Shown in pieces: positions 2,246 to 36,354 of a DNA stretch of 39,081 bases; within the stretch, counting starts at the first letter, position 1; each line of letters begins with the position of its first letter. The position numbers and the translations under genes were made by a program. The notes beneath the pieces were generated by a model. It was given only the letters and a program-made list of their open reading frames with translations. It had not been told where the DNA came from and did not search any database. Source of the DNA: a virus; the IMG/VR virus record IMGVR_UViG_3300008453_000559, positions 1 through 39,081 of that record, one strand, 5' to 3'.

Positions 2246-5200
2246 GTTTATTAAACGATTTTGGAAAGTCATTAACTGATGGTTTTGGCAATTTCCTTAG
2301 AGGCTATACTAACGTTGCCGAAAAAATTGGTAGAGGCGTTAGCACAGCAGGTCTTTTAACTGACGTTGATAATCCTGAATATAAAGATGGTATTCAATTA
2401 ACAGATATTCGAAAGACTTACGAAAAATCTAAAGACATTAGCCCAGGGCAAGCATTCCTTGCTGCTTCTGATTTACCTTCTCCTCTTACTGCTATCCGTG
2501 GTGCTGCCCAAATTCTTGGTGATAAAACACCAACAATGTTTAAAAAAGATTTCAACATCTATGATGAACAACAACGTAAGCAAGCATTTGAAACTGAAAT
2601 TGTTGGTAAATTAGCATCTGGTTCTGTTGACGCTGTTGTAACCTGGTTTGCTGACCCACTAGTTATTGGTGGTAAGGCTATCAAAGTAGCACGTGTTGGT
2701 GCTAAAGTTGGTAAGTTAGATATCCCAGGTTTAATTGAACAACGTTTACCTAAAACTGCAGAAGAAATCAGTAAGGCTGTAACCAAAGGTGGTTGGGACA
2801 GGTTCCTTGATGAAGTTGTCAGACCTGATATGGATGCCGCAGCGTTACTAAAAAATAAAACAGTAAGACGCTCATCCAATCCTGAACTTCTCGCTTCAGT
2901 TTTCGGTAACATTACAGATAAAGAAGTTGGCAAGACTGTATTAAAAGCAGTCCTTGGTGATGATGCTTCTGTTAAGTTGTTAGAAAAATCAGCAAACAAT
3001 GCTGATGTTGCTGCAGTTATTAAACGCCAACAACGTAAAATTGATAAATTACGTCCTGGTCGTGACATTAATGCTGAACTATTAAACTCACCTGATGAAC
3101 TAAATGCTCACCTTGGTGAATTCAAAGGTGTGTTAAAGAAAGATGAACTGTTTGCTCAAGCATTAGAATTAGCAAAACAGAATGTTTTCTCTTACTCAGG
3201 TGGTGCTACCAGATTTGGTGCAACTGAAAGTTTAAGAGCAGCGTTTGGTCGTTCTGCTGCACAGCAAAGAGGTCTTGGTTGGATTGCTGACGATTTCCAA
3301 TTAACACCATTTCATGGCATTATGCGTGTAATGACTTGGGGTGGTCGTCAACGCCCATCTGGTTGGATAACAACTAAAGGTATTAATTCTACTGGTTCTT
3401 CTGATGAACTTATTGCGTTCATGGACCAAGTTAAACCTTGGGCTAATAAGCCAGGACAGGAATTAAAACGTAGATTCATAAATAAATACGTTGCTGCAAA
3501 AACTGATGCTGAACGTGCACAGATTGCTGAACTTATTGAACGTAAAGCCTTAACAGATATTGTTATCGCTAAAGGATTCAATGAAACTTTAGATGCAAGA
3601 ACTAAATCTAAAATAATGAGAGATTTTACTGACGTTCCAGCAGATAAGTTAAATAACCTTGGTGATGTAATTTATCAAGAAACTGTTAGAAGACGTAATA
3701 GTACTTTAACAATGGCTAGAGAAAAAGGCTTCTTCTTTGACGAAGAGGGACGTAAAGTTTTTGTACCTTTTGTATCTTCCCAACTTCCTGATGCTTTACC
3801 AATGATTGATATCAGACTTTTTCAAAAGATTGCTGATGAGCATGGTAATTTAATCAAAAAGGGTTATGCATACACAACTGATGCATTGAACTCTGCTTAT
3901 ACTTTATTTGATTCATTCTGGAGACCAGCAACGCTTATGCGTTTAGGTTACCCACAACGTAACGTTGGTGAAGGTAGTCTTCGTGCTATGGCTTACATGA
4001 ATGGTTTCATGAACTATGCCAGACCAGTTGAAGGTATTTCTAACTTCACTAGAAACAGATTAGCCTCTGTTAAAAATAAATTAGATATGATTAACGCTGA
4101 TAAAGGTTTAGTTGTATCCAAGGCTGGACCTGGTGTTCCAAGAGTAATTGGTACCTGGCAAGAAATGATTGATGTTCAAAAAGGTGAAATACGTTTATTC
4201 CAAGCAGATAAAAGAGTTGCTTTGGCTGCACGTAAAGAAACCGTTAAAAGTTTAAACAAAGTAACTCAAAAGGCTGCTAAACAAAGATATAACGATAAAA
4301 TTAAAGAAATAGATAATCGTTTACAATTAATTGAATCATCAATTGCTAAAGCAGAACAGAACATTGATAACTATGTTAAATCTGCTGAACGTAAAGGTAT
4401 CAAAGGTAACCGTTATCGTTTAGGTCAAAAAGCAGTTGTTCATAATGGTATTAAATTCCAAGGTGCTTTCGAAGGCAACATTGGTGAATACGCTATGGAT
4501 GCTTCAAGTGCACAACGTAAAACATCTTTAGAACTATCTAACCCAATGGCTATTGGTGAAGAGTTCTCTCGTAAAAATTATGTTAATATGGGTGTTTCCC
4601 GTATTGCACCTAAAGACATCAATGGCAATTGGAATGAAAACTATTTTTCTGCTGTTGCTGATTCTGCAAGAGTGTACAAGAATGATGAAGCAGCACGTTT
4701 ACTTATGCGTTCTGTTAACCCAGAAAGTATAGTTGCTTCTATTGTTAGAGCAGCAAATAGAGGCAGACTTGATAACAATATTAAATTTATTGACAAGAAT
4801 GTTAATATTGAAAAACTTCGTAAAGATTTAATTGACTCTGGTGTTAACTGGAAAGATGCTGAAGAGGTAAGAGTTCATTTAGTTAAACTTGCTTTATATA
4901 TGAAGCAAGCATTTCCAGATGCTCAACTTAGACGTAAACTATCTGAAAAGACTGTTTCAACTGCAGAGATTAGAAAAGTTTTAGAAAATAGAACTGATTT
5001 AATCCCAATCAATGGTGGTTTATTAGCGGCAGAATCTCAAAAAAGATTCATGACTTCTTATAAGCAAACTGTTAATAAGATATTTAAATACATTGGTGCT
5101 TTACCTGAAGATACTTTAGTTCGTCACCCTTTCTACAATGCTGTGTATAATCGTGCAGTATCACAACAGGTAGACCAAGCAATTGCTCGTGGTGCTATTA

Positions 5201-24947: not shown

Positions 24948-25127
24948 TTATTTCTCCTTATTTCTTTTTCGGTTTCTTATTTCCAACTTTGATGGGCTAT
25001 ATCCACCAATAGTTCGACCTGTTTTGCGAGGCTTCTTAGGATTCTTTTTCCTAGCCTTGCCATTCTTACGTCCTTCATTAGCCATCACCTTTACTGGTGC
25101 TGGTTTTAAACCTTTACCTTTTGCCAT
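24948..25127 (-). CDS. Small basic protein, 59 aa
   Basis: ATG overlaps the stop of the proteasome-like gene (TAATG at 25127); TAA abuts the SSB start. Product MAKGKGLKPAPVKVMANEGR followed by a Lys/Arg/Pro-rich stretch and GRTIGGYSPSKL. Very basic; a nucleic-acid contact is possible by composition. No family recognised. Exact fit between neighbours supports the call. Confidence 0.7.
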   Translation of the reverse strand: MAKGKGLKPAPVKVMANEGRKNGKARKKNPKKPRKTGRTIGGYSPSKLEIRNRKRNKEK

Positions 25128-25660
25128 TATTTTACCTGCTTATGTGTTATAAATGGTGGTGCAGTAAATACATTGTTCTTTGCAGCGATATTCATTGCGT
25201 GTTTCCAAGTAGCACCAGCGTGTAATGCACCTATTGCATATGGTGAACCTGAACCTATGCCATAGACCCCATCCTCACGCATTAGTACTGACAATGAATC
25301 ATCTATTTCAAATATCATTCCACCTAATGCTATAAGGAAAATGAAATCTGAATCATCATTTTCTTTATCTGGCATGTAACCATTGACAGTTAATGCCACT
25401 CTCATTGATGGAACAACCATTGAAATCATGTAATGATATATATCTTTATATGCTGCAGAGTTAGGTGTTGGTGGTATCCAGTTATGTTGAATGATGTCGC
25501 AAGGTTGCGTTAAACCTGCACCTGCTATCAAAAACTTTCCACGTTTAGTAATCTTTTGCATTACTGGATGTGTGTAAGTTCTTCCATCATCATCTGTGAC
25601 ACGTGAGTCGGCAACTAATAAACAATGGTCTTTTCTTTGCAAACCAATTATTGTTGTCAT
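25127..25660 (-). CDS. Proteasome beta/HslV-like Ntn-hydrolase, 177 aa
   Basis: MTTIIGLQRKDHCLLVADSR aligns with the HslV and proteasome beta N-terminus: Thr2 becomes the catalytic Thr1 after Met removal, D18 takes the place of Asp17, and K36 is near the Lys33 position (MQKI). The later GVYGIGSGSPYAIGAL matches the IGSGGxYA motif of this fold. These form ring-shaped self-compartmentalised peptidases that need an unfoldase partner (HslU, Mpa). No partner is encoded here, so it could use a host ATPase or act alone. The ATG overlaps the Cys-peptide stop. Confidence 0.85.
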   Translation of the reverse strand: MTTIIGLQRKDHCLLVADSRVTDDDGRTYTHPVMQKITKRGKFLIAGAGLTQPCDIIQHNWIPPTPNSAAYKDIYHYMISMVVPSMRVALTVNGYMPDKENDDSDFIFLIALGGMIFEIDDSLSVLMREDGVYGIGSGSPYAIGALHAGATWKHAMNIAAKNNVFTAPPFITHKQVK

Positions 25661-25746
25661 GGTCTTTCACCTATATTCGATTCATTGTTACACGTACAAT
25701 ACCATATTGATGAACAGATATAACATTTTTCATCATTATCTCTCAT
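25657..25746 (-). CDS. Tiny Cys-rich peptide, 29 aa
   Basis: Fills the gap between the DnaB-like and proteasome-like genes exactly, with ATGA overlaps at both ends (25743-25746 and 25657-25660). Cysteines at 8, 11, 17 and 19 (C-x2-C and C-x-C) in MRDNDEKCYICSS with a following WYCTCN would make one compact zinc site. Double overlap argues for a translated, coupled gene. No known family. Confidence 0.7.
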   Translation of the reverse strand: MRDNDEKCYICSSIWYCTCNNESNIGERP

Positions 25747-26546
25747 GCTGTTTCTTTTATATCTGCAAGATACATATACAGTGGATTGAAGTCTAAGAAT
25801 ACGGCTTCTGTTCCATTTGAAACTGCTTTTCCGTAACGATTCTTTACTGGTGCTACAGCCAAGTCACCACTAGGTGTCATACCTAATGTACAAATTAATG
25901 CAGGTAGTTGTGAAACTTTACCTTGAATTGTGTATCTTGGTGGACAGATTGGTTGAATATCTCCAACTGGTGGTATCCAAGATTCTGATGTGTGATGTAG
26001 TAAAAGAATTGCAGCATTAGTATCGCGTGCCAAATATTTTAGTTCTTTCATTGTCGCTCTAATGGCTGACCATTCTTCAGCACCACCTTCAGTAACATCT
26101 GAAAGGTTATCTACAACTATTAAATGTGGGTTTTCACCATGCACTTCTTCAAACGCCAATACTTCTTCATCAATATCAGAAAGTGTTGGGGCTGATTCAA
26201 AACTCCATTTAATGTGTCCTGCTTTGTTTAATTCGTTGATTGCTTTGCCTTCGTCACTAGCGAGTATGCGTTCGGCGTCAATTTGACTTACCCCTGTAAT
26301 CATTGAATACAAACGCATACTCATAGTGTGTGCTCCAGTATCTGCACAGATATAGAGAGTTGGAACTTTTGTACGCAGGGCTACTGCTAAAGCAAGTGTT
26401 GATTTACCAACTCCTGGTGCTCCAGCAAACATTGACACTTCACTTCTTCTAAGAAGAATTTTCATGTAATCAAATGCCCTGAATACAGGTGGCAATGGTT
26501 CGCCACCTGATTCGTTTTTTCCAACTGTTCTACTAATTGTTCTCAT
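25743..26546 (-). CDS. DnaB/RecA-like replicative ATPase (helicase-type), 267 aa
   Basis: Walker A is MFAGAPGVGKST (39-50), Walker B is HLIVVDNLSD (141-150), and LLLLHHTSE (about 180) gives the sensor strand. This RecA-fold core without a separate N-terminal DnaB domain is the usual actinophage 'DnaB-like helicase'. It lies with primase and SSB, so replication fork loading or unwinding is likely. Start follows the preceding gene within a few bases; the end overlaps the Cys peptide. Confidence 0.82.
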   Translation of the reverse strand: MRTISRTVGKNESGGEPLPPVFRAFDYMKILLRRSEVSMFAGAPGVGKSTLALAVALRTKVPTLYICADTGAHTMSMRLYSMITGVSQIDAERILASDEGKAINELNKAGHIKWSFESAPTLSDIDEEVLAFEEVHGENPHLIVVDNLSDVTEGGAEEWSAIRATMKELKYLARDTNAAILLLHHTSESWIPPVGDIQPICPPRYTIQGKVSQLPALICTLGMTPSGDLAVAPVKNRYGKAVSNGTEAVFLDFNPLYMYLADIKETA

Positions 26547-26549
26547 GAA

Positions 26550-26969
26550 CTAGTTAACCCAGCCTGCTTGCCCTTTGCGAATCCATTGTGGGTCGCATTG
26601 TTCTGCTTTACGTTCTTTAGGCAGTGCACACATCCATGCTTGCCATGGACCTCTGCCACCTACACCACTTCTATGAACTAATGGACCGTGCTTACAACTT
26701 GGTGCTGGACCTGTTGAGTTCGGTGGTGTAACAGGTGCAAAACCTGTTGATGATGATATTTCGGTAGCACCTAATGTTTTGGCTGCGTATGCAACTTGTG
26801 CACCTTCACCAATCACAGTTTCTTCTAGTGCACCAACAAGACTATCAACTTGTCCTGCAACTGCTTCTTCAATGTTCTTTTTCAATTCAGAAAAATCGCT
26901 ACCACGAACAGTAACAATAGTTCCGATTCTTGTTTTAACATTAACGACAAATGCTGATTCATTTGACAT
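26550..26969 (-). CDS. Conserved actinophage protein with C-terminal Cys/Trp motif, 139 aa
   Basis: N-terminal ~60 residues are a beta-helix region (VKTRIGTIVTVRGSDFSELKKN); a Pro/Thr/Ser linker follows; the C-terminus has CKHGPLVHRSGVGGRGPWQAW, then C and a late C-D-P-x-W-I, likely a single zinc site with C93, His, C113 and C124. The pattern recurs beside the nuclease and ATPase in actinophage replication modules. Function unknown; ssDNA binding is a plausible guess. Confidence 0.7.
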   Translation of the reverse strand: MSNESAFVVNVKTRIGTIVTVRGSDFSELKKNIEEAVAGQVDSLVGALEETVIGEGAQVAYAAKTLGATEISSSTGFAPVTPPNSTGPAPSCKHGPLVHRSGVGGRGPWQAWMCALPKERKAEQCDPQWIRKGQAGWVN

Positions 26970-27639
26970 TACTTATCTCCAATGTTCCTAATGGTAAGTG
27001 TTTCTCACCATTCACCCAATAACAGTAATCTGTTAATGAGCACATTTTACACCCATCGAAATTAGGAAGATAGATATCATGCTCTCTTGCCTTTTGGAAG
27101 AGTGCAACCATCTCATCTAGTTTCTTTAATGTAAACTTATCCAAGTTAACAGGATTACTTGTTGTTCCTGTTCTTGCCATCCAATAACATCCCCAACTTG
27201 GTCGGACGTTATACACACGTTCAAGTAAGCAAGCATAGACTTGTAATTGTAAATCTGTTTGAGGTGTTCTTTGACCAGTTTTTAAATCAAGAATAACAAG
27301 TTCACCATCTGGTGTTACAAATATTCTATCAACTGCACCTTTGAAAGATATGCCACCGATTTCAACTTCCATAGTAATTTCAATGCCAGGTTTTCCGTCA
27401 GGTGTTGTCCAGATTTTCCAATTAGAGTTATCACGCCAAGTAATCCAATTGTCTAAAAACTTTTTACCATTGGCATACCACCATGTGGCATTTTCACCGT
27501 CAGGGTTTGCTTTAGTGGTGCGAGATGATTGTCTTAAATCTTCAAGTTTAATTTCACCATTCTTAGTGGCTTCATCTAACTCAATTTTCCAAGCATCTTC
27601 CCATAATGAATTAAGAGATAACATTATTTTCTTTTCCAT
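26959..27639 (-). CDS. Cas4/RecB-like PD-(D/E)XK nuclease, C-terminal part, 226 aa
   Basis: Catalytic residues of the Cas4/RecB family are visible: D104 (KGAVDRIF), D118-L-K120 (VILDLKTG), and Q-x-x-x-Y in DLQLQVYACLL. The end has C197, C200 and C206 (C-x2-C-x5-C), three of four Fe-S ligands. The usual N-terminus, with the fourth Cys and the GxxxH motif, is missing here but present in the separate gene at 28102-28311. ATG at 27639 (another at 27624) overlaps the intervening gene. End-processing of phage or host DNA is the likely role. Confidence 0.8.
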   Translation of the reverse strand: MEKKIMLSLNSLWEDAWKIELDEATKNGEIKLEDLRQSSRTTKANPDGENATWWYANGKKFLDNWITWRDNSNWKIWTTPDGKPGIEITMEVEIGGISFKGAVDRIFVTPDGELVILDLKTGQRTPQTDLQLQVYACLLERVYNVRPSWGCYWMARTGTTSNPVNLDKFTLKKLDEMVALFQKAREHDIYLPNFDGCKMCSLTDYCYWVNGEKHLPLGTLEISNVK

Positions 27640-28112
27640 TTTTCTACAGGGTTTAAAATACTTCTAGGAATAATTTTACCATACTGGGCTTCAATACCTT
27701 TATCCCAACCTTCTTGGGCTGGTATCCAACCAAGTATTTCAACTTCAAGGAATTCTTTAGGAACTGGTACAACACCAAAAATTATTAAGTTTTCTTTTTT
27801 TAAATCTTTTTCTCTAACAGCAGGACCATCTTGCGTGCGTACTCTGCGTACTTCAATGTTAAGACCAACATCAGGTAAATCTTTATATTTTTTATGGTCT
27901 GAGCCTTTCCAAATGGTGGCTGACCAGTATTCATTAATTGCTTTAGCGACAGCAATTTCGCCAATCGCTGCAGCAACTAAGGCTGTGCGATTATCTTCCA
28001 TCTTTAACGGATTGTAATAAGGTGCATCAGGTTTACCCCAGTTGTTTGTATATCTTCTGATACCTATCGTGCTTGCATACTCATACTCCCAAGATTCTAA
28101 TTTAACTATCAA
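27624..28112 (-). CDS. Predicted PD-(D/E)XK-like nuclease lying between the two Cas4-like halves, 162 aa
   Basis: TTG start with a purine-rich leader (GGAAAAGAGAAAATC). Residues 50-63 (IGEIAVAKAINEYW), D81 and E87-V-R89 (DVGLNIEVRR), and LGWIPAQEGW (128-137) match an actinophage family that looks like a restriction-type nuclease core, with Arg in place of the usual Lys. Overlaps the N-terminal part by 11 bases and the C-terminal part by 16. Either a free-standing intruding nuclease or a gene moved into the Cas4 gene; activity unproven. Confidence 0.6.
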   Translation of the reverse strand: MIVKLESWEYEYASTIGIRRYTNNWGKPDAPYYNPLKMEDNRTALVAAAIGEIAVAKAINEYWSATIWKGSDHKKYKDLPDVGLNIEVRRVRTQDGPAVREKDLKKENLIIFGVVPVPKEFLEVEILGWIPAQEGWDKGIEAQYGKIIPRSILNPVEKWKRK

Positions 28113-28311
28113 GATTTTCTCTTTTCCAAAGTTCTAAATCATAGTTTTCTGTTGCACGATGCACAGCACTGCCACCTATAGACCAAGTGGCTGGTTGTTC
28201 TTCAACTTTAGCAATCCTAGATAAATAATAACGATAACCACAAGACAACCAAGTGGTTAAACTAGAATACGAAGTATGTTCAGGGACTTCGTGACCGTTA
28301 ACTTTTAACAC
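28102..28311 (-). CDS. Cas4/RecB-like nuclease, N-terminal part, 69 aa
   Basis: GTG start with GGAAGAGGG upstream. The sequence HTSYSSLTTWLSCGYRYYL holds C24, the expected first Fe-S ligand, and IGGSAVHRATENYD has H51 and E55 of the GxxxH motif of Cas4/RecB nucleases. The frame stops after KRENLDS, just where the intact family continues into what is now the gene at 26959-27639. Both halves keep their key residues, suggesting a functional two-chain enzyme. First gene of the leftward replication operon. Confidence 0.75.
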   Translation of the reverse strand: MLKVNGHEVPEHTSYSSLTTWLSCGYRYYLSRIAKVEEQPATWSIGGSAVHRATENYDLELWKRENLDS

Positions 28312-28343
28312 TTGACCCTCTTCCGATTATCGTAGTTAGAGAA

Positions 28344-28379
28344 GTAGGGCGTGTGAAATGGAGTAAACGCACGCCCTAC
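28344..28379 (-). promoter_or_regulatory. Leader hairpin 1 (loop complementary to gene leaders)
   Basis: GTAGGGCGTG (28344-28353) pairs with CACGCCCTAC (28370-28379), extended by one G-C and one wobble pair, with a 12-base loop. Read leftward the loop is TTTACTCCATTT, complementary to GAAATGGAG in the leaders of the genes starting at 30922, 31672 and 33970. Confidence 0.6.
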
Positions 28380-28383
28380 ATGT

Positions 28384-28412
28384 AGTGAACTAATTTGAGG
28401 AGGAAGTTCACT
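28384..28412 (-). promoter_or_regulatory. Leader hairpin 2 (anti-ribosome-site loop) at the predicted transcript start
   Basis: AGTGAACT (28384-28391) pairs with AGTTCACT (28405-28412) around a 13-base loop. Read leftward the loop is TCCTCCTCAAATT, complementary over 12 bases to ATTTGAGGAGGA, the ribosome site of the gene starting at 33236. The leftward promoter just upstream would start RNA close to 28413, the first base of this hairpin. Confidence 0.55.
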
Positions 28413-28419
28413 AAAACTA

Positions 28420-28448
28420 ACTGTAGCATCAGAATTACACTGGTGCAA
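28420..28448 (-). promoter_or_regulatory. Predicted leftward promoter of the replication operon
   Basis: On the minus strand: -35 TTGCAC (28443-28448), 17-base spacer, -10 TACAGT (28420-28425) preceded by TGC, an extended -10 form. It would start RNA near 28413 and read into the Cas4-like N-part at 28311. The match is moderate. Confidence 0.45.
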
Positions 28449-28472
28449 CTACCGAAAAGTTTGTGTCGGAAG

Positions 28473-28502
28473 TTGCGAGCAAAAAACCCCTGTGCTTATA
28501 AT
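28473..28502 (+). promoter_or_regulatory. Predicted rightward promoter for the lysozyme-like gene
   Basis: TTGCGA (28473-28478), 18-base spacer, consensus TATAAT (28497-28502). The -35 is partly inside the arm of the hairpin 28445-28476. The only rightward gene downstream is at 28668. Confidence 0.5.
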
Positions 28503-28539
28503 GGGCTCGGGGCGAGGGGCTCAGGGTATAGGGTGTGGG
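28503..28539 (+). other. G-quadruplex motif just after the TATAAT box
   Basis: Six G-tracts at 28503-05, 28509-12, 28516-19, 28524-26, 28531-33 and 28537-39 separated by 3-4 bases, a canonical G3+N1-7 motif on the plus strand. It begins at the base after the -10 box, thus at or near the transcript start. Confidence 0.7.
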
Positions 28540-28577
28540 TGTGAGCGTGAGCGAAAGCGAACTGCGAACATCAACAA

Positions 28578-28593
28578 GTACCCGTAAGGGTAC
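28578..28593. repeat. GTACCC-N4-GGGTAC hairpin, copy 1
   Basis: Perfect 6-bp stem with GTAA loop. It lies in the leader of the rightward lysozyme-like gene, 75 bases before its start. First of eight copies in the window. Confidence 0.8.
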
Positions 28594-28667
28594 AAAGTTC
28601 AAGACTCGGATGAGGATTGAACGTAGAAAGTCTGAAGATAATTCTTCAGCATAGGTAAGGAGAACCT

Positions 28668-28991
28668 ATTTTATTACCAGATATACCACCACCAATTGAA
28701 AGAGAAATTTCAGCAGAAGTTTCACGTGCATATGTTCGTGAACAAGTATTAATAAAAGGCTGGGACGGACGTCAATGGGTATGTATAAATGAGTTAATAG
28801 ATAGAGAATCAAAATGGAGTAACATAGCAGATAATCCTAAATCTTCTGCTTATGGTTTATTCCAAATGTTAAAAACGCCGATTGGTTTATCGGTTAGTGA
28901 GCAAACAGAGCGTGGGTTGCGATACATTGAGCATCGCTACGACACGCCCTGCGAAGCATTACGCCATCATAATAGACGTAACTGGTACTAA
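28668..28991 (+). CDS. Lysozyme-like (SLT/transglycosylase) protein, 107 aa, with probable ATT start
   Basis: The frame is open from 28659 to the stop at 28989 and encodes a small transglycosylase-like domain: CINELIDRESKWSNIADNPK with catalytic Glu47, SSAYGLFQML, then RGLRYIEHRYDTPCEALRHH and a final WY. No ATG, GTG or TTG occurs in frame before the domain. A strong AAGGAG (28657-28662) is 5 bases before an ATT at 28668, the likely start (rare but known, as in infC). It would cut glycan strands, either in the virion at entry or at lysis. It is the only rightward gene in a long leftward region. Confidence 0.7.
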   Translation: MLLPDIPPPIEREISAEVSRAYVREQVLIKGWDGRQWVCINELIDRESKWSNIADNPKSSAYGLFQMLKTPIGLSVSEQTERGLRYIEHRYDTPCEALRHHNRRNWY

Positions 28992-29076
28992 TACCTTTTA
29001 GTATTTCTTTTTACATATCTGTAAATTGATGCAAAGGTTATACAAAATAATACAGATATTATGAACTGCGTAAATA

Positions 29077-30502: not shown

Positions 30503-30922
30503 TTAGAACTCCACTTCAATTGATTCTTCAGAGTATGAGTCATCATTGCCAGCGTCTATTTGACTTTCAAGACCACCAACAGCGTTCTCAACTATCTCTC
30601 TTGCCTCATCTTCAGACTCAGCCTTAACTGTGAATGAGAATGAAATAGTTACGCGACCTTCGTATTCTTGTTGCAATAGGTTTGCACCAATGTCACCAAG
30701 TAATTCGTTGACATCATCGCGATTAACTTCTGCTTCTTCTTCGCCACCATTGAATCGTTCGTCAAAGAATTCGTGAACAGTATTGCGTAACTTAAATATC
30801 TCGTCACGATAACCTCTTGCACGAACTTCTTCTGCTTCAAGGTCTTGCTTTAATTTATCTATTTCTTTTTGCACTACATCAAGAGGACTAACTACAACCT
30901 CTTGGTTATTTTCTTCTGACAT
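30503..30922 (-). CDS. Coiled-coil protein, 139 aa
   Basis: True start is probably ATG at 30922 (MSEENNQEVVV), after GGAG in the leader ACAGAAATGGAGAAAGT; the frame stays open into the GTACCC hairpin at 30938. Residues ~15-55 form a Lys/Glu coiled coil; the rest is acidic, with EGRVTISFSFTVKAESEDEA suggesting a small beta-alpha domain. Acidic C-terminus. Function unknown. Confidence 0.7.
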   Translation of the reverse strand: MSEENNQEVVVSPLDVVQKEIDKLKQDLEAEEVRARGYRDEIFKLRNTVHEFFDERFNGGEEEAEVNRDDVNELLGDIGANLLQQEYEGRVTISFSFTVKAESEDEAREIVENAVGGLESQIDAGNDDSYSEESIEVEF

Positions 30923-31511: not shown

Positions 31512-31672
31512 GCTGTCACCTCTCTAACAATGTAATCAGCATCTTCAGCAAGGTCAATACCATAAGCCTCAATAATTGTTTCATGGGCTGTACGCATAGC
31601 CTTAACCTCGTCATAGGCAAGAATATTAATAACTTCTGTGCCTAAATTAACTATGACTTTATACTCTTTCAT
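31508..31672 (-). CDS. Small hypothetical protein, 54 aa
   Basis: Start ATG after the leader ACAGAAATGGAGAAACGA, the same ribosome-site sequence as at 30922 and 33970. Product MKEYKVIVNLGTEVINILAY then DEVKAMRTAHETIIEAYG: two strands and a helix, like a minimal beta-alpha fold. Stop overlaps the next start (ATGA). Confidence 0.7.
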   Translation of the reverse strand: MKEYKVIVNLGTEVINILAYDEVKAMRTAHETIIEAYGIDLAEDADYIVREVTA

Positions 31673-32607: not shown

Positions 32608-32797
32608 TTCCTTTCTCGTAGTGTTGTGTTTGTAAATATCTTTCGGGCTCGGTAACATCAAACCCGACAGGTATAACTTGAATATGCTCTTGCATGAAAG
32701 AACTTTCCTGCATGAGTGCCTCAAGATATGTCGGTGTCATCAAACGCTCAGCAATAATCTTGTCGATTTCTTCCTGAGACATATTCTTATCTTTCAT
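32570..32797 (-). CDS. Hypothetical helical protein, 75 aa
   Basis: I use the ATG at 32797 (MKDKNMSQEEIDKIIAERLM), which overlaps the DUF4192-like stop; GGTGG lies just upstream. Gln/Glu/His-rich with a Tyr-Glu-Lys tail (YLQTQHYEKGNGRAYNR). No family known. The next gene starts inside its 3' end. Confidence 0.6.
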   Translation of the reverse strand: MKDKNMSQEEIDKIIAERLMTPTYLEALMQESSFMQEHIQVIPVGFDVTEPERYLQTQHYEKGNGRAYNRVTYLP

Positions 32798-33236
32798 GAC
32801 CACCCACAGGACAGCAGTTCTCGTTATCAATACATAGATAAGAGCCCCAATGGGTATCGGTTATGTACAAGATATCTCTAACGACAATATCTGGACCATA
32901 ATCATTCATCAAGTCATCAGCGAACACGCGATACTTGTCTGGTTCTGATATATACAAACAGAAAATGACTTGGTTATCATAATCTAACCCTGCTTGTATC
33001 TCTGCATATGCTTCACCAATTAAGTCATCAGATATATCAATGGACTTAATCTTTTCCACATAATCATCATCAGTTGTAATCATCACTAAAGTTTTATCTT
33101 TAGGTGTTGAACCAATAATGGTAGGCAATAGTTGAACCAAGTCATTTGGTCCATTAACAATTTGCCTTGTATCTTTTACTTTTTTTACTACGCCAACTTT
33201 TTCTCGTAGTACTTTTATTTCTTTTTCTTTCAACAT
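32787..33236 (-). CDS. DUF4192-like actinobacterial protein, 149 aa
   Basis: NDLVQLLPTIIGSTPKDKTLVMI is the opening of DUF4192 (P-x-D-L-x-x-x-L-P-x-x-x-G-x-x-P-x-x-S/T-L-V), and the end has WGSYLCIDNENCCPVGGH, the W-x-S/G-x-x-C ... CCP-x-x-G tail of that family. DUF4192 is largely limited to Actinobacteria; function unknown. It is shorter than most chromosomal members. Leader contains a large hairpin (33255-33294) and the ribosome site ATTTGAGGAGGAA. Confidence 0.8.
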   Translation of the reverse strand: MLKEKEIKVLREKVGVVKKVKDTRQIVNGPNDLVQLLPTIIGSTPKDKTLVMITTDDDYVEKIKSIDISDDLIGEAYAEIQAGLDYDNQVIFCLYISEPDKYRVFADDLMNDYGPDIVVRDILYITDTHWGSYLCIDNENCCPVGGHER

Positions 33237-33567: not shown

Positions 33568-33970
33568 TGAACGCCCCCTCGAATTCCTTAGGTTGCAAAC
33601 CATTACGGCATGCCTGAACTGACTTACTGATTAGTGCTCGCAGATTGTTAGTAGGGTGTGGCTCTATATCATCTAGCAAGAACTCGGTGTTATCCAAGTC
33701 ACCAGCCAGAAAAGTCATAGAACTAATCACATCCATAGCCAACGACCAGTGGTCATAGTTTTCACTATCTGTTTTAACCATATGACCAGCCAAAGTATCT
33801 GCAATATGCATTCTCTGCTTACTGGTCTTATATGTCCTAACTAAAAAAGAAAGATACACATCTCTTTCACGAATGAAATCACCATTCTCTTTCAGTTGAA
33901 TATCAAACTTCTCTAACATATTGTCAAAGTCATTTAATATTGTTTTCTTATTTAACTTTGTCACTTTCAT
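33560..33970 (-). CDS. Hypothetical helical protein, 136 aa
   Basis: Start ATG at 33970 (MKVTKLNKKTIL) follows the leader ACAGAAATGGAG; the longer frame to 34003 only encodes the hairpin sequence. All-helical, with DVYLSFLVRTYKTSKQRMHIADTLAGHM and a Pro/His turn. Frequently paired with the previous gene in actinophages, as I recall; function unknown. Confidence 0.7.
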   Translation of the reverse strand: MKVTKLNKKTILNDFDNMLEKFDIQLKENGDFIRERDVYLSFLVRTYKTSKQRMHIADTLAGHMVKTDSENYDHWSLAMDVISSMTFLAGDLDNTEFLLDDIEPHPTNNLRALISKSVQACRNGLQPKEFEGAFNV

Positions 33971-34150: not shown

Positions 34151-34259
34151 TTGCACCTACTGTCACAATGTAATTAAATAAACAATCATCACACCGAATA
34201 AGTGCTTGCGTTGTATATTCAATTTGATTATCACAATCAATACATTTAATGCTACTCAT
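34140..34259 (-). CDS. Minimal zinc-ribbon protein, 39 aa
   Basis: Start overlaps the preceding stop (ATGA). Two CxxC pairs, C6-x2-C9 and C23-x2-C26 (IKCIDCDNQ and IRCDDCLF), 14 residues apart, the size of a single zinc ribbon. The rest is Ile/Tyr-rich. No specific family. Confidence 0.7.
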   Translation of the reverse strand: MSSIKCIDCDNQIEYTTQALIRCDDCLFNYIVTVGANEK

Positions 34260-34447
34260 TGTCGTCCTCCCTCCTCAGTAACTTGTAACACTTTCAACCA
34301 GTAAGCCTCACACGCTTTTAAGTCGCGTGAGACTTGAAGATTAGTGAAAGAGGTTCTAGTACCCTTACGGGTACGATTACCAACCATCACCAGCGAACGG
34401 GTCTTAATCACCCTTCGAGTAGGTATGCCGTGTTTATACTTCTTCAC
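34256..34447 (-). CDS. Small basic protein, 63 aa
   Basis: Start set at GTG 34447 (product begins MKKYKHGIPTRRVI) with GAGG seven bases upstream; a longer frame to 34492 would lie wholly over the Cys peptide. Contains RTRKGTRTSFTNLQ and a Lys/Ala/Trp helix. Strongly basic, possibly nucleic-acid binding. A GTACCC hairpin (34359) is inside its coding sequence. Confidence 0.6.
   Translation of the reverse strand: MKKYKHGIPTRRVIKTRSLVMVGNRTRKGTRTSFTNLQVSRDLKACEAYWLKVLQVTEEGGRQ
34359..34374. repeat. GTACCC-N4-GGGTAC hairpin, copy 6 (inside a gene)
   Basis: TTAC loop; within the coding sequence of 34256-34447, encoding the RTRKGT stretch. Second copy found inside a gene. Confidence 0.75.
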
Positions 34448-34523
34448 AGCACACCTCACAGTTGCAATTAGCCTTACATTGTTCGCACCCATTCTGGCAA
34501 TCGCCTAAATGAATTGTTGTCAT
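34434..34523 (-). CDS. Cys-rich peptide, 29 aa with seven Cys; first gene of the accessory operon
   Basis: ATG at 34523 preceded by GAGGAGGAGAG, the best ribosome site of the region. Product MTTIHLGDCQNGCEQCKANC with N-C-E-V-C-C-E-E-V: cysteines at 9, 13, 16, 20, 22, 25 and 26. The spacing suits a metal-binding knuckle or thiol peptide. It is first behind the near-consensus promoter at 34574-34602. Overlaps the next gene by 14 bases. Confidence 0.7.
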   Translation of the reverse strand: MTTIHLGDCQNGCEQCKANCNCEVCCEEV

Positions 34524-34602: not shown

Positions 34603-34655
34603 GCACATTTGCACTAACGGGGCAGTCAAAAATTGGCGTACGGGGTCGTCAGAAA

Positions 34656-34700
34656 AAGTTTGTTGCGAGCCACAAGTTTGTGGCGAGAGTTTGTTGCGAA
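34656..34700 (+). repeat. Three direct repeats of the AGTTTGTKGCGA type, downstream of the HTH gene
   Basis: Copies at 34656-34669 (AAGTTTGTTGCGAG), 34674-34687 (AAGTTTGTGGCGAG) and 34687-34700 (GAGTTTGTTGCGAA), 18 and 13 bases apart. Same family as the five copies at 35587-35695. They lie between the promoter at 34574 and the HTH-gene terminator. Confidence 0.75.
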
Positions 34701-34711
34701 AAATTTTTGGC

Positions 34712-35566: not shown

Positions 35567-35586
35567 CCCATTTGTCCGAAATGTCC

Positions 35587-35695
35587 GAGTTTGTGTCCGA
35601 AAAGTTTGTGGCGAAAAAATCGGACATATCAGGACAATTCGGACATCGAGTTTGTGGTGAAAAAATAGGTTTGTTTCGGTAAAGTTTGTGGCGAA
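35587..35695 (+). repeat. Five direct repeats of the AGTTTGTGGCGAA type (iteron-like)
   Basis: Copies at 35587-35600 (ends GTCCGA), 35602-35615 and 35682-35695 (both AAGTTTGTGGCGAA), 35648-35661 (GAGTTTGTGGTGAA) and a diverged one at 35667-35680. All have the same orientation, and the last runs directly into the first DnaA box. TCGGAC and GTCCGA words are interspersed. Spacings are irregular (15, 46, 19, 15), so this is iteron-like but not a regular array. Confidence 0.75.
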
Positions 35696-35697
35696 AG

Positions 35698-35838
35698 TTA
35701 TCCACAGGTTATCCACACCTGTGCATAAGTCCTGTGGATAACTATTTAACTATCGGAGTGTTGCCTGTGGATAACATGTGAACAACCAGCCCCACTTATC
35801 CACAACTTATCCACACCCTGTGCATATCATGTGGATAA
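35698..35838. other. Putative replication origin: seven perfect DnaA boxes
   Basis: TTATCCACA occurs forward at 35698, 35709, 35796 and 35807, and reversed (TGTGGATAA) at 35733, 35766 and 35830. Six of them form two copies of one module: two forward boxes two bases apart, the word CTGTGCATA, then a reversed box; the seventh is alone in the middle. Such density of perfect boxes is a host-DnaA binding site. With adjoining direct repeats and an HTH gene this is best read as the phage origin; DnaA titration is an alternative. Confidence 0.75.
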
Positions 35839-36354
35839 CATTGTTATCAAATCGTAACCTAAGACATGCCGTTCATAAGTTGACAATCGTTTCATTTAGT
35901 CACTCACCAAATCCACCAGCACCACGAGGCGAACCCTAGGACATGCTAGGAGATAGTCCGTCACGACACATCTTACATTGGTTAGCATTAGCAGAATTAG
36001 TACCAGATTAGATAGGATAAGGACAATTTTTAGGGCTTTGACCCCCCCATTTTAAGTTTTTTGAGGGGGACGATATAACACTCCCTTCATATATTTTTGT
36101 TGGTTATTTGCCCTCTGACCTGCGGAAACGTGTTGTTATCTTTTTGGTATCGTTTTTTCTGTTACCATTTGCTTTGGTAACGACTTAGTTATAGTGTAAG
36201 GGTTTTTTTATAGGTTGGCTGGTATTAAAGCCAACCAGCCAACACTATAGTATTATATATATTATTATATTACTACTACCACTGGTTAGGCTATAATAGC
36301 CGCCTAACCTACAACCCACATGCTTATGAGAATGGCTTTTAGAAGGGGCGTGTA
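35839..36354. other. Non-coding region between origin and terminase (516 bases) with several inverted repeats
   Basis: No credible gene found. Visible: GTTACCA/TGGTAAC (36161-36167, 36175-36181); GGTTGGCT/AGCCAACC (36213-36220, 36229-36236), which can also pair as GTTGGCTGG/CCAGCCAAC; an AT-only tract near 36246-36271; GGTTAGGC/GCCTAACC (36284-36291, 36302-36309); and a C-run and G-run at 36042 and 36065. A packaging site (pac or cos) next to terminase is expected here but cannot be recognised by eye. Confidence 0.55.
36284..36309 (+). promoter_or_regulatory. Terminase-operon -10 box inside a palindrome
   Basis: TATAAT (36292-36297) stands in the loop of GGTTAGGC/GCCTAACC, 58 bases before the terminase start. 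No good -35 is present at 16-18 bases, so it may need an activator or alternative sigma. The palindrome is positioned as an operator for late-gene control. Confidence 0.5.

Follow-up and report, generated by a model that had tools for sequence, protein, structure and literature searches.

The locus analysed here raises the question of whether the leader RNA of a phage replication operon can act on other genes of the same phage, the loops of its hairpins pairing with their ribosome-binding sites. The window, that is, the whole stretch of 39,081 nucleotides under analysis, is a virus contig; the initial annotation had proposed that it carries a two-loop trans-acting RNA built into an operon leader and able to switch off accessory genes. 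A WhiB-like gene in the window and relatives of its exonuclease in Mycobacterium, Rhodococcus and Cutibacterium phages indicate an actinobacterial host. A search of host genomes returned a single distant exonuclease match, in Streptomyces, and a DNA-level search of GenBank phages with the region gave no match.

Architecture of the leader and its operon

The leader and the operon that follows it are composed of these elements (hairpin loops in square brackets):

28448-28420, minus strand: candidate promoter TTGCAC-17-TACAGT with extended -10, predicted start about 28413, the first hairpin base
28413-28383, minus strand: leader hairpin HP1, TAGTGAACT [TCCTCCTCAAATT] AGTTCACTA, 9 perfect pairs
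28404-28392, minus strand: HP1 loop, anti-Shine-Dalgarno (anti-SD), UCCUCCUCAAAUU
28379-28344, minus strand: leader hairpin HP2, GTAGGGCGTG [CG TTTACTCCATTT CA] CACGCCCTAC, 10 perfect pairs
28369-28354, minus strand: HP2 loop, anti-SD, CGUUUACUCCAUUUCA, written (CG)UUUACUCCAUUU(CA)
28311-28102, minus strand: N-terminal part of a PD-(D/E)XK exonuclease, first gene after the leader, GTG start (PF12705, phrog_1870)
25743-28112, minus strand: next operon genes, namely a 162-aa ORF, the exonuclease C-terminal part, a gp49-like protein and a DnaB-like helicase (Pfam, PHROG)

Two adjacent perfect hairpins had been described on the leftward strand, and they are indeed there, placed consecutively 5' of the exonuclease/helicase/primase operon and on the same strand. 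At the top of the HP2 stem a C/A mismatch is followed by a G-C pair, which accounts for the 12-nt loop given previously. The operon also encodes a primase, a sigma factor and an HslV-like or proteasome-like peptidase (25127-25660, minus strand). Its exonuclease is split into pieces of 69 aa (28102-28311) and 226 aa (26959-27639) with the 162-aa ORF (phrog_18407) between them, an order that is repeated in the relatives L007 and L026.

Within the window, support for a promoter is weak. The candidate at 28448-28420 has only 7/12 consensus bases and is absent from the promoter-scan list; the closest scan match on the minus strand (28357-28329, 9/12) overlaps HP2, so that RNA started there would begin downstream of the hairpins. 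The best match in the scan of 27.0-36.4 kb, TTGACA-17-TATACT, lies at 34602-34574, at the head of the block of putative targets. L007, L164 and L171 have TATAAT-like boxes preceding their hairpins; several other clades lack them. A rightward promoter-like match is present at 28473-28502.

Several other features surround the leader. The intergenic region 28430-28680, beyond HP1 and HP2, is strongly structured, and the plus strand of 28321-28700 (380 nt) folds at -132.7 kcal/mol. On the other side of the leader from the operon, and in the opposite orientation, lies a lytic-transglycosylase-like gene (28655-29000, plus strand, recognised from its translation ...ESKWSNIADNPKSSAYGLFQML), which has no ATG, GTG or TTG start; its frame opens at an ATT after GGTAAGGAGAACCT in the window and in L003-L006, which is likely to be a rare start codon, and a small hairpin holds its SD in the loop. 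A 16-bp palindrome, GTACCC....GGGTAC, occurs eight times (28578, 30938, 32123, 33301, 33981, 34359, 34538 and 35461), several copies being directly upstream of ribosome sites; the comparable site in L007 and L075 is GTCGCC....GGCGAC, and therefore its stem sequence varies while its pairing is kept. A cluster of DnaA-box-like TTATCCACA in both orientations (35696-35840) marks a candidate replication origin, adjoined by AGTTTGTG(G/T)CGA repeats (34655-34710 and 35575-35700), of which a related copy lies near 28455.

Complementarity within the window

The putative targets of the two loops belong to a leftward block upstream of the leader, at 34.5-30.5 kb, where a third hairpin of similar build is also found:

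34535-34528, minus strand: putative target GAGGAGGA, before a small ORF starting at 34523, 8 nt against the HP1 loop
34277-34270, minus strand: putative target TGAGGAGG, before a small ORF starting at 34258, 8 nt against the HP1 loop
33979-33971, minus strand: putative target GAAATGGAG, before a gene starting at 33964, 9 nt against the HP2 loop
33294-33255, minus strand: third hairpin, GATAGCCCAAG[TTGTTTCTCTCTTTCTCG]CTTGGGCTATC, before gene 33236
33251-33239, minus strand: putative target ATTTGAGGAGGAA, before gene 32787-33236 (DUF4192), 13 nt against the HP1 loop
31687-31679, minus strand: putative target GAAATGGAG, before a 54-aa ORF starting at 31672, 9 nt against the HP2 loop
30936-30928, minus strand: putative target GAAATGGAG, before gene 30503-30922, 9 nt against the HP2 loop

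The complementarities that had been reported are thus real, with small adjustments: at the 33236 site the first loop matches 13 nt including one closing base (12 had been counted), the 34523 leader is matched over 8 nt, and the second loop matches the leaders of 30922, 31672 and 33964 over 9 nt each. The tiny Cys-rich ORF behind the GAGGAGGA site (about 29 aa, 34437-34523, minus strand) is shorter than the ORF-list limit. All three minus-strand copies of GAAATGGAG in the window are immediately before start codons, and the counterparts of gene 30922 in L005, L006 and L007 are preceded by the same motif.

We took every hairpin whose stem has at least 9 pairs and ranked it according to how many gene leaders it matches, a procedure independent of hand-chosen loops. 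HP2 comes first of the 100 hairpins of the window, the leader hairpins together take ranks 1 and 2, and the third hairpin, whose stem is different in L007 and still paired, takes rank 3.

SD sites being rich in purines, the match of loops and sites is no more than mildly unusual, and not decisive, when the window is judged alone. The predicted pairing energies are -19.2 kcal/mol at the 33236 site and -15.6 kcal/mol at the 31672 site; since the 5% points of shuffled loops are -14.5 and -14.9 kcal/mol, these values fall only within the low tail and the window by itself cannot settle the question. The concern, raised at the outset, that common purine-rich ribosome sites could yield such matches was therefore well founded for this single sequence, and it is the comparison across relatives that lifts the match above chance.

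Conservation of the leader hairpins in related phages

Relatives were collected by scans with the downstream ORF and with the N-terminal part of the exonuclease, giving about 100 loci; 586 candidate relatives were found and 80 kept, and the loci with sufficient upstream sequence were grouped into 27 leader clades. Hairpins of this build, one to three each, precede the start codon in 23 of the 27, mostly by 10-90 nt, and their loops are mostly of the CUCC, UCUCC or CCUCC type. Four examples illustrate how different the stems are:

L007: AAGGTGGGATG[AGTTTCTTCTCCATTTCG]CATCCCACCTT
L084: GTGTAGAGATGG[ATTGTCTCC]CCATCTCTACAC
ct2KA10 (L104): TTACATAGTTCTCCCTTA[TTGAGTACCCTCCTGTCCTC]TAAGGGAGGACTATGTAA
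L168: AGCTGTATCTC[TTCCTCCTCCTT]GAGGTACAGCT

No such hairpin was found in the exonuclease leaders of clades L086, L139, L141 and L150 (in L150 a similar hairpin instead precedes the gene at 4899), and no comparable leader was noticed just upstream of the exonuclease of Thermobifida phage P318, Attacne and Espica.

HP1 is retained among close relatives, and more divergent ones have different stems. The HP2 loop is found unchanged in L007 and with one core-flank base altered in L026, in both cases on an unrelated stem. Stem identity between clades averages 31%; stem arms are nevertheless paired at 98% in their own combination, against 43% when arms are swapped between clades, and every stem position displays all four Watson-Crick pair types across clades. 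At the sequence level this demonstrates selection on stem pairing. Moreover, mismatches within the stems, read on the operon-sense strand, are 34 G.U and 10 A.C (p=0.0004). Because the stems diverge yet pair, and because G.U exceeds A.C on the operon-sense strand, RNA of that strand is the functional form. A plus-strand RNA whose SD-like loops would serve as a CsrA-type sponge was also considered and is disfavoured by the same strand test.

Across IMG/VR, the pattern GTTTCNTCTCCRTTTCG gives mostly chance matches without a hairpin, and is structured only in L007, L026 (= L062) and L037. The last is a G+C-rich contig with three tandem hairpins (4610-4705, minus strand; loops ACCTCCCC, TTTCCTCTCCGTTT and TTGCCCTCCC) that precede a terminase-small-subunit-like ORF, possibly an unrelated case of anti-SD loops.

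Loops and start-site motifs change together

In each of a series of phages, a motif repeated at the gene starts is complementary to the phage's own loop: GAAATGGAG in the window, L005 and L006, GAAATGGAG(AA) in L007, AATGGAGAA in L073, GGAGACA in L084 and L119, GACAGGAG in ct2KA10, GACAGGAGA in L164, AAAGGAA in L134, AAGGAGGA in L168 and AAGGAGAG in L154. Since a change of loop is accompanied by a change of motif from phage to phage, every lineage would have its own pair of loop and SD. The complement of the loop contains the commonest 7-mer of the SD zone in six genomes; no coupling of loop and leader was found in clades L076, L079 and L115.

Own loops give 60 leader matches of 8 nt, compared with 22.2 +/- 5.8 when loops are permuted among phages (0/20,000 permutations), and 31 of 9 nt compared with 8.1 +/- 3.6 (0/20,000), in tests where loops were delimited by hand, gene calling was simple and related clades are not fully independent. 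Restricted to one phage per loop family, the count is 36 against 14.2 (1/20,000). Used in the sense of the SD itself, the loops give a single match, and reversed loops give 30, which shows the contribution of composition alone. In the hairpin ranking, the exonuclease leader hairpin heads the list in 11 of the 16 genomes that qualified, where 0.4 would be expected. The coupling of loops to leaders thus exceeds its swap controls in these sequences. The proposal of a two-loop trans-acting leader RNA is supported in part: its central idea, leader loops made to pair with ribosome sites of other phage genes, withstands the refuting condition named with it, since across clades a change of loop goes with a corresponding change of leader, and the operon-sense strand is the structured one; the long match of 12-13 bases before gene 33236 is, on the other hand, not conserved, being 13 nt in L005 and 8 nt only in L006.

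Trans pairing and alternative explanations

Our best reading, to which we give a probability of about 0.65, is that the operon-leader RNA base-pairs, in trans, with ribosome-binding sites belonging to the phage itself and keeps ribosomes from loading, i.e. represses translation. The alternative that survives best is autoregulation, in which the loop pairs, within one molecule or between two, with the SD of the exonuclease itself and the other matches follow from the shared SD motif. The loop does match 8-9 nt of the SD of the exonuclease in about nine clades, and since this first ribosome site of the operon is matched in many relatives, autoregulation may be part of the picture. However, no own-SD match is present in the window, L007, L075, L087, L115, L119, L134 and L026, and in the cis-poor genomes, those in which the exonuclease's own SD is unmatched, coupling to other genes is 39 against 13.0 (0/20,000). 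Many hairpins, moreover, end 11-25 nt before the start codon and have stems of 10-19 pairs, and such a linker would be short for intramolecular reach. Because coupling to other genes is undiminished in the cis-poor set, we regard pairing in trans as what has chiefly been selected, and autoregulation as either an additional function or a rival reading, which as a full explanation is unlikely.

Less likely still is another outcome of the same contact, with the leader as the regulated partner, or with pairing that stabilises or activates the partners. Pairing alone gives no direction, and deletion of B11, a mycobacterial small RNA, also reduced some complementary transcripts (PMC10470900); what is matched in those genes, however, is the ribosome site, which pairing should occlude. 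That the palindromes act as DNA, as operators or part of a promoter, would agree with perfect inverted repeats and with the promoter-like match at 28357-28329 over HP2, but it is very improbable, for between clades the stem pairing is kept and the stem sequence is not, the conserved information is in the loops and not in the arms, and the excess of G.U over A.C on one strand is not expected of a DNA palindrome. Equally little credit can be given to chance, by which pyrimidine-rich loops would match purine-rich sites and have no role beyond mRNA stability: the SD zones are purine-rich, half of the matches are kept by reversed loops and those in the window are only mildly unusual, but swap controls, in which loop composition and SD cores are preserved, still lower the matches about 2.5- to 4-fold, and the leader hairpin tops its genome's hairpins too often.

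According to the trans-pairing model, the replication-operon mRNA would begin with stem-loops displaying short anti-SD copies with phage-specific flanks, and these loops would pair with the ribosome-binding sites of those of the phage's own genes that share the extended SD motif. The leader could act as the intact 5' UTR or as a cleaved fragment; pairing would hinder ribosome loading and so repress translation, perhaps with subsequent mRNA decay. By analogy with B11/6C, the leader most likely hides the SDs of accessory genes once the replication operon has been transcribed, the direction and the timing being presumed. We infer that the leader is transcribed, acts in trans and represses its targets, in time with the replication operon.

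If this is correct, an RNA and not a repressor protein shuts a set of genes at the level of translation, and the regulator sits in the mRNA of the next module. Such a switch would operate in hosts that apparently have no small-RNA chaperones, and the co-varying pairs of loop and SD would represent a natural family of orthogonal translational switches. It would also give a testable account of the repeated start-site motifs of actinophages, the Start-Associated Sequences (SAS) and others, whose role is unexplained.

Comparison with known systems

No phage leader of this kind is described in the open-access literature that was searched. The SAS and ESAS of cluster K mycobacteriophages and of Microbacterium cluster EF are phage-specific extended SD motifs at a subset of non-structural genes, and an unknown RNA or protein has been proposed to act there (PMC3203893, PMC7302621). 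The window resembles them in having a repeated extended SD motif right before the starts of a subset of genes (GAAATGGAG, three times), as do several relatives with comparable motifs; SAS, at 13 nt, is longer and also more uniform. The 13-bp cluster K consensus GGGATAGGAGCCC with 17-bp inverted repeats upstream does not occur here, the motif of the window being a different one, and the palindromes of the GTACCC type that precede some starts measure 16 bp and do not resemble ESAS.

In Anaya (cluster K1), the gap between gp96 and gp97 contains a long hairpin on the coding-sense strand (Anaya 59845-59905, L175:9845-9905), and its loop is the lone reversed SAS (59882, minus strand); this hairpin is intergenic, near the right end, and not in an exonuclease leader. 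Four other Anayavirus phages (Illumine, Yunkel11, Peanam and Amelie) have retained the loop. Amgine and Shandong1 have an unaltered SAS and a loop that no longer matches it; these two, Pixie and Keshu have the region with no loop matching SAS, SirPhilip is also without it, and outside K1 the loop does not match. No antisense SAS copy was found in AnnaSerena (cluster EF). Anaya as a second case of the same switch is only suggestive because of the mismatched loops of Amgine and Shandong1 and the absence from Pixie, Keshu and SirPhilip. We can thus put forward only tentatively, at somewhat less than even odds, a general strategy in which each actinophage lineage has a private SD code and a matching leader or intergenic hairpin RNA, a one-to-many co-evolving translational switch of which the SAS of cluster K would be another instance.

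Staphylococcus aureus RNAIII and similar RNAs with C-rich loops arrest translation through a loop complementary to the Shine-Dalgarno regions of several mRNAs, which is the likeness to the phage leader; RNAIII is, however, a long free RNA and a host regulator of another phylum, and no relationship to the leader is known. Lambda OOP, PreS and VpdS of VP882 are likewise phage-encoded RNAs that act on phage or host mRNAs, but OOP is antisense to one gene and PreS and VpdS are Hfq-bound small RNAs, and none of the phage regulatory RNAs in the excerpt of the review consulted is an operon-leader hairpin matching the phage's own shared SD motif (PMC12197685).

A close parallel is the mycobacterial small RNA B11/6C, whose loops repress through direct pairing with ribosome sites (PMC10470900). 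In M. tuberculosis and M. abscessus it has two alternative hairpin loops that mimic anti-SD sequences, many mRNA targets, and hosts without a known small-RNA chaperone (PMC10470900). The window also has two hairpins, and pairing of their loops with the ribosome-binding sites of many genes is supported here at the sequence level, by complementarity and by co-variation. 6C/B11 is, however, a host-encoded free RNA with C-string loops, whereas here the element is a phage-encoded operon leader whose loops are UCCUCC and ACUCC in mixed CU sequence, with no C strings, and whose phage-specific flanks vary along with the targets. Rfam covariance models, including 6C/B11, gave no family at the gathering score in the window and 16 related loci. 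The phage leader, as judged by these features, is no member of the 6C/B11 family and resembles it in its predicted way of working.
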